Source of the DNA: Cafeteria roenbergensis
Lineage: Eukaryota; Sar; Bigyra; Bicosoecida; Cafeteriaceae
Reading direction: 5' to 3'
NCBI GenBank assembly: GCA_008330645.1
Contig: VLTN01000061.1
Location: 62,001-126,000, forward strand
Length of the DNA: 64,000 nt
Under the pieces are notes generated by a model. That model saw only the letters and a program-made list of their open reading frames with translations. It had not been told where the DNA came from and searched no databases. Below are positions 17,663-18,277 of the stretch, piece after piece (position 1 is the first letter of the stretch; every line of letters starts with the position of its first letter). The translations under genes were made by a program, and so were the position numbers.

Positions 17663-18277
17663 TCAGATGTTGAGCGGGCCAAGGGTCGCCGGGGAGATCT
17701 TGCGGCGGAAGGCGTGGCTGTTGGTCGCCGCGTGCAGGCTCATCTCCGTGACGTCGGTGGAGATGGTCTTGTCCTGGCGGTGGACGCGGACCTCGGTCAT
17801 GCGGTTCTTGTAAATTCCCTCCCAGCCAAAGCGCGTCTTGTCCGAGATGGCGTCCGACATCAGGTCCTCGTCGGGCACCGGGAGAACGCGCATGATGCGC
17901 TCGCCGCCCATGGACTTGTCCTCTGCCGTCTCGTAGGGGCTGGGCGTCCACTGCTTGCTGAAGGCGTAAATCGGCGTGCCGCACGCGTCGAACGGGCACA
18001 CGGTGTCGTGGCGCTGCAGCTCCCACTTGCGGTACTTGAAGGCCACCGGCTTGAGCGTGAGGGCGCCGGCCGGGAAGCGGGCGCCGGGCTTCTGGCTGAG
18101 CTCGAGCGCCGCGCGAGCCTCGGCATCGGTCACGTCCTCGGCGCGCGCGGGGCAGCTGGCAGGGGCCGCCGCGGCAGCCGGCACGAAGCCCGCAAGGGAG
18201 CCCATGCCGCGGGATCCGGCCGCGAAGGCCGCCCTGGCGGCGCTTGCCGCGGAGGCGCGGGCGGCGGTCAGGGCCAT
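17663..18277 (-). CDS. nad11: Stand-alone fragment of the complex I 75-kDa subunit (nad11 second domain)
   Basis: 204 residues from the ATG at 18277. The N-terminus (MALTAARASAASAARAAFAA) is Arg/Ala/Ser-rich without acids, a typical mitochondrial presequence. The body aligns with the part of NDUFS1/NuoG/Nad11 that follows the iron-sulfur domain: GALTLKPVAFKYRKWEL corresponds to [17 protein letters not shown]; then ERIMRVLPVPDEDLMSDAIS and DKTRFGWEGIYKNRMTEVRV correspond to EVMRILPR-NEDINEEWIS and [20 protein letters not shown]. The iron-sulfur cysteine domains are absent upstream and the large molybdopterin-like domain is absent downstream; the protein ends shortly after. Stramenopile mitochondrial DNAs often encode only the iron-sulfur half of nad11, so this looks like the nuclear remnant of the other half, a matrix-arm component of complex I. 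It is divergent with importin-5. Confidence 0.82.
   Translation of the reverse strand: MALTAARASAASAARAAFAAGSRGMGSLAGFVPAAAAAPASCPARAEDVTDAEARAALELSQKPGARFPAGALTLKPVAFKYRKWELQRHDTVCPFDACGTPIYAFSKQWTPSPYETAEDKSMGGERIMRVLPVPDEDLMSDAISDKTRFGWEGIYKNRMTEVRVHRQDKTISTDVTEMSLHAATNSHAFRRKISPATLGPLNI

Follow-up and report, generated by a model that had tools for sequence, protein, structure and literature searches.

A stretch of 64 kb of DNA, hereafter the window, was found to carry on its minus strand (17663–18277) a gene that its sequence identifies as a complete, stand-alone nuclear gene for one subdomain of NDUFS1, the 75-kDa subunit of complex I. In the explanation that we consider the best, and probably the correct one, this is an intact nuclear gene that separately encodes the hinge and subdomain I of Nad11/NDUFS1/NuoG, and its product would be imported and would dock in trans on a Nad11 reduced to its iron-sulfur part. 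The import, the docking, the assembly into complex I, the mitochondrial origin of the gene, and what the remainder of the genome contains are inferred; similarly, Nad11 may be a two-piece subunit here, and its molybdopterin domain may have been lost.

The proposed mechanism is as follows. The N-terminal stretch, which is rich in Ala, Arg, and Ser, would direct import into the mitochondrion, and the mature domain would then dock, through its GALT-KP/R-WEL and ISDKTRF motifs, on the iron-sulfur-only Nad11, a partner that is encoded by the mtDNA in many stramenopiles. Docking would restore the surface that serves as a packing face for the other parts of the N module, and the N module would thereby be stabilized. 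Phe68 stands in place of the Cys of the hinge, and the corresponding N4 ligand would be supplied by the partner together with the other N4 ligands. The piece itself probably binds no iron-sulfur cluster and would not participate in electron transfer. The remaining molybdopterin-like subdomains would either have been lost or be encoded by a third gene.

The gene and its nuclear setting

The gene consists of a single exon with an uninterrupted frame of 204 amino acids, which starts at the first in-frame ATG (context ACCATGG) and ends with TGA. The coordinates and strand given in a preliminary description of this DNA were correct. The codon bias of the frame is like that of the other genes in the window, with GC contents of 0.63, 0.56, and 0.93 at the three codon positions. 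A codon score trained on four genes was +0.46 in the frame; the other two sense frames scored about −0.5, and the highest value among the antisense frames was +0.15. A sliding score, for which three different genes in the window were the training set, agreed with this earlier version: values were positive between the ATG at 18277 and the stop at 17663, whereas on either side they were negative or close to zero, with a maximum of 0.04 past the stop. In the flanks, coding signal was absent, with all three minus frames below zero, both in the three 300-bp blocks of 16763–17662 and in 18278–18457. The latter is the 180-bp intergenic region that the gene shares with a divergent neighbor, and because this neighbor is only 180 bp away, an iron-sulfur domain would not fit in front of the gene. 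The gene thus looks complete, in that the bias appears with the ATG and disappears with the stop, and a divergent gene begins 180 bp upstream. Further downstream, the first long ORF of the minus strand (13733–16729; 998 amino acids) had no Pfam match at E values up to 0.01.

The divergent neighbor (18458–22537, plus strand) encodes a HEAT-repeat protein that we take to be importin-beta-like; its match to an importin profile was below the cut-off. Three short GT-AG introns (124–176 bp) are crowded at its 5′ end, and the remainder is a single exon with over 1,100 codons. Two similar AT-rich stretches were seen here, one at 18379–18391 (AAACTTGAAATTT) in the shared promoter region and the other at 18719–18731 (AAATTTGAAATCG) in intron 2 of the importin-like neighbor; this pattern had two matches versus 0.01 expected in shuffled sequences, a ratio obtained with a pattern picked after both stretches had been sighted.

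The spliceosomal introns of the neighbor, together with genes for a kinesin and a DEAD-box helicase, establish that the window is eukaryotic nuclear DNA, and the nuclear location proposed in the preliminary description is thus supported by the surroundings. Genes for C2-repeat, TPR, and HEAT-repeat proteins are also present, and scans of the 64 kb for Rfam families and tRNAs returned nothing. A region at 11876–13624 (plus) gave a weak match, below the cut-off, to the catalytic domain of tRNA intron endonuclease. A minus-strand frame at 56514–62771 contains ten C2-domain stretches, and the opposite strand is open along the greater part of it, in a frame of 1,545 codons (56502–61136, plus) that is probably a by-product of the repeats and the high GC content. 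The G+C content of the window is 71.7%, which is compatible with, though no proof of, an origin from the bicosoecid Cafeteria, for which a value of 70.1–70.5% has been given (PMC6972860).

Homology to NuoG/NDUFS1 and the parts of the protein

The profile search with TIGR01973 (NuoG, NCBIfam) that had been suggested in the preliminary description returned a match with an E value of 5.6e-14, covering positions 194–290 of the 606 in the profile. The score was 51.8 bits against a family cut-off of 470, so that the match is partial and falls short of a full-length 75-kDa subunit. The Pfam family Fer4_NDSU1 (PF22151) was matched just above its gathering cut-off (24.3 versus 23.8 bits; profile positions 23–50 of 51) by residues 125–152 (17822–17905, minus). 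When the protein was compared with the PDB using phmmer, the matches were to 75-kDa/NDUFS1 chains of complex I, with a best E value of 9e-11. We also built a profile from 82 alphaproteobacterial NuoG proteins and ran it on the 916 stop-to-stop frames of at least 20 amino acids in the window. It matched the frame of this gene at an E value of 1.7e-13 (profile positions 219–310); no other frame of at least 20 amino acids in the 64 kb scored better than E 1.7, and the best value among the same frames reversed was 1.1. The earlier claim that the protein derives from the segment of NuoG/NDUFS1 behind the iron-sulfur domain is borne out by TIGR01973, the PDB chains, and our own profile. The match is far beyond chance, and the homology, which is genuine, extends over a single domain only. 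In collections of viral and genome contigs, no confirmed relative was found with the protein query alone, and none was found in the viral contigs with an alignment query. Nine records with a distant match were found in a plasmid collection, two annotated as nuoG and seven with no feature listed under the match.

The homology is limited to about residues 68–176, which correspond to the hinge after the iron-sulfur domain and the small 4Fe-4S-like subdomain I. Profiles, alignment, and shuffles place the core at residues 69–166 (17780–18073, minus; PAGALTLKPVAFKYRKWEL ... ISDKTRFGWEGIYKNRMTE), and when this core was compared with the NuoG majority sequence, it outscored 1000 of 1000 shuffles. The hinge sequence here is FPAGALTLKPVAFKYRKWEL, aligned with the hinge by which NuoG leaves the iron-sulfur domain, and the small domain aligned to NuoG ends in ISDKTRF..DGL..QRL. 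Our own profile and the alignment also indicate a 16-residue insertion relative to NuoG, at residues 109–124 (17906–17953, minus). Within residues 68–166, 23 of the 46 positions that are invariant in NuoG are kept, including GALT-KP, R-WEL, and ISDK-R; invariance was judged on 35 alphaproteobacterial NuoG rows that are close relatives (pairwise identity of at least 67%, mean 78%) and is therefore a loose standard. The identity to NuoG is 33–38%. The retention of motifs against so distant a group suggests selection.

The homology sets in near Pro69/Gly71, after an N-terminus that is new, so that the separate gene takes up NuoG at the hinge that follows the iron-sulfur domain. Some of the phmmer alignments to PDB chains begin near residues 53–67; an extension of the homology over these residues into the iron-sulfur domain was rejected as not significant, since 2598 of 20000 random draws scored as high. 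At the other end, the tail (residues 167–204; 17666–17779, minus) has a codon score of 0.50 in frame and occupies the place where NuoG continues into the molybdopterin-like domain. An alignment made with MAFFT might hint at homology of the tail to the start of that domain, which was likewise rejected (2371 of 5000 shuffles scored as high), and residues 165–204 had no match in the PDB at E values up to 10. The protein contains neither the iron-sulfur domain with the N1b, N5, and N4 cysteines nor the molybdopterin-like C-terminal domain, and neither was found in the 64-kb window with our own profile. In the preliminary description, the gene was regarded as a shrunken second half of Nad11. It does stand alone, with both flanking domains missing, but it covers only about 100 of the approximately 485 residues after the hinge Cys, as counted from Cys205 in a NuoG of 692 residues. 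Because of this limited coverage, Nad11 could be either a two-piece subunit in which the molybdopterin-like part has been lost or a three-piece subunit.

Residues 1–46 (18140–18277, minus) form a putative mitochondrial presequence, which is rich in Ala, Arg, and Ser, with four Arg and no Asp or Glu. This composition makes compatibility with mitochondrial import plausible, and composition alone is a weak indication: in this GC-rich window, 22 of the 152 ATG frames of at least 100 amino acids, including the one under study, passed a similar filter (no Asp or Glu and at least three Arg or Lys). The mitochondrial-type presequence reported previously is plausible, but the case for it is weaker than was assumed.

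In all 35 aligned NuoG rows, the position of Phe68 (codon at 18074–18076, minus) is occupied by the Cys of CPVGALT at the start of the hinge, which we take to be a ligand of cluster N4. Two other cysteines, Cys94 and Cys99, form a C-x4-C pattern and presumably lie near the position of the N7 cysteines of bacterial NuoG. Because the ISDKTRF motif contains no cysteine, the binding of an N7-type cluster by this piece appears unlikely. AlphaFold gave a mean pLDDT of 49.6 for the whole protein with the 35 NuoG rows and of 42.1 for the trimmed piece alone. Since both models are of low confidence, they lend no support to the folding of the isolated domain; the low values may reflect a need for the partner, an alignment of insufficient depth, or an inability of the piece to fold.

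Alternative explanations and the composition of Nad11

The explanation preferred here could be extended by assuming that subdomains II–IV are supplied by a third nuclear gene, so that Nad11 would consist of three pieces. This is an extension and not an exclusive rival, and we regard it as a serious possibility, although short of likely. A precedent is provided by Euglena, in which NDUFS1 is made of NDUFS1A and NDUFS1B (PMC10884005), and the molybdopterin part in brown algae is described as highly divergent and, in at least Ectocarpus, nuclear (PMC3423374). Against it, the sequence profile revealed no gene for subdomains II–IV in the 64-kb window.

It is possible, although rather less likely than not, that Nad11 is composed of an iron-sulfur half encoded by the mtDNA together with a very small subdomain-I protein encoded in the nucleus, and that the molybdopterin-like domain has disappeared altogether. 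That domain comprises nearly 400 residues and was inherited from bacterial oxidoreductases. It is kept in the 75-kDa subunit of most complex I enzymes and has no known cofactor in mitochondria. If this composition is correct, the second piece of Nad11 would be smaller than any that we found described in the literature on split nad11, and the large domain would be dispensable outside the Euglenozoa as well. A lineage with only the first subdomain, and with that subdomain separate, would reveal the part on which the cohesion of the N module depends, and would be a natural test of cutting a core subunit into independently encoded, imported pieces.

A complete Nad11/NDUFS1 might instead be encoded elsewhere, in which case the gene in the window would be a truncated duplicate with another role, for example, in the assembly or regulation of complex I. 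The loss of the CPVG cysteine and the change of 23 of the 46 invariant positions would fit relaxed constraint, and the alteration of half of these core positions must be counted against our main explanation. However, the frame is intact, the core motifs are retained, and the gene boundary is clean. Furthermore, nad11 occurs in some form in all of the stramenopile mtDNAs in one comparison (PMC5910586), so that in a stramenopile, a complete copy in the nucleus is less to be expected. We consider a duplicate unlikely.

It is also conceivable that the gene model is incomplete and that exons at another position complete the molybdopterin-like or the iron-sulfur domain, given that spliceosomal introns are present in this genome. 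The profile scan of the 916 frames, with no NuoG-like frame better than E 1.7, and the flanks devoid of minus-frame coding signal (16763–17662 and 18278–18457) rule out such hidden exons within the window, as far as exons of at least 20 amino acids between stops are concerned, and we regard this alternative as very improbable. A decaying nuclear copy of mtDNA (a pseudogene or numt) would account for a fragment of a gene that is often found in mtDNA, but was rejected as the least credible alternative, given that GC-rich nuclear codon usage spans the entire frame, N-terminal extension and tail included, that there is no internal stop, and that motifs conserved at 33–38% identity to NuoG are unlike a recent or decayed insertion.

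Comparison with split Nad11 in other lineages

The splitting of nad11 behind its iron-sulfur part, on which the preliminary description relied, is documented in stramenopiles. In diatoms, the gene is described as broken at the boundary of the iron-sulfur and molybdopterin parts, giving nad11a and nad11b (PMC3423374), and it was split in 33 of the 39 mtDNAs of Bacillariophyceae in one survey (PMC8987724). The molybdopterin part is reported to be nuclear in Ectocarpus (PMC3423374), and the iron-sulfur part is reported to be nuclear in Nannochloropsis salina (PMC3999925). A review that cites Sevcikova et al. (2016) states that one part of nad11 is nuclear in eustigmatophytes, some diatoms, and some Bigyra (PMC7194472). 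Because the review reports a nuclear nad11 fragment in some Bigyra, part of our observation of a stand-alone nuclear fragment may already be in print. No published stand-alone nuclear gene for subdomain I was found in the nad11-splitting literature that we covered, of which the survey of Sevcikova et al. (2016) was not a part.

The gene described here resembles the split nad11a/nad11b of diatoms, brown algae, and eustigmatophytes in that the break lies behind the iron-sulfur domain and one part is nuclear in some lineages (PMC3423374; PMC3999925; PMC7194472; PMC8987724). In those accounts, however, the second piece is the molybdopterin-binding domain, whereas here it is subdomain I only. Compared with NuoG/NDUFS1 as represented by TIGR01973, the protein is homologous over positions 194–290 of 606 and lacks the iron-sulfur domain and subdomains II–IV. 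There is also a resemblance to Euglena and other Euglenozoa, in which NDUFS1 is split and its molybdopterin-like part is described as replaced or not found (PMC10884005; PMC12699882). In Euglena, NDUFS1 is rebuilt from two polypeptides with the break inside subdomain II, and the work on Diplonema is reported to have turned up no candidate for the missing half of NDUFS1, a truncated NDUFS1 being presented as a feature of the Euglenozoa. Unlike the situation here, subdomain I stays on the iron-sulfur piece in Euglena, and NDUFS1 is described as nuclear-encoded.

The closest comparison is with the bicosoecid Cafileria marina. Its mitochondrial nad11 is described as 426 bp longer at the 3′ end than that of Cafeteria, which lacks this extension coding for a 4Fe-4S domain; the domain is kept with the iron-sulfur module and treated as separate from the molybdopterin domains, and the analysis of the nuclear contigs of Cafileria in that study is confined to a plastid screen (PMC6723347). 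The extension has 142 codons, and the protein described here has 136 residues from Pro69 to its end, a comparison of lengths only. By description and length, this is apparently the same domain, but the Cafileria version is joined to the iron-sulfur part and encoded by the mtDNA, whereas the one described here is nuclear and separate. A simple reading of the two cases together is that subdomain I was detached from the molybdopterin part in bicosoecid-like flagellates, and is encoded by the mtDNA in Cafileria and by a separate nuclear gene here. The transfer of subdomain I to the nucleus would then offer an explanation for the difference between the mitochondrial nad11 genes of Cafileria and Cafeteria (PMC6723347). 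Most likely, the stand-alone subdomain I is a further form of the known splitting of Nad11, in which the piece that was cut out is unusually small.
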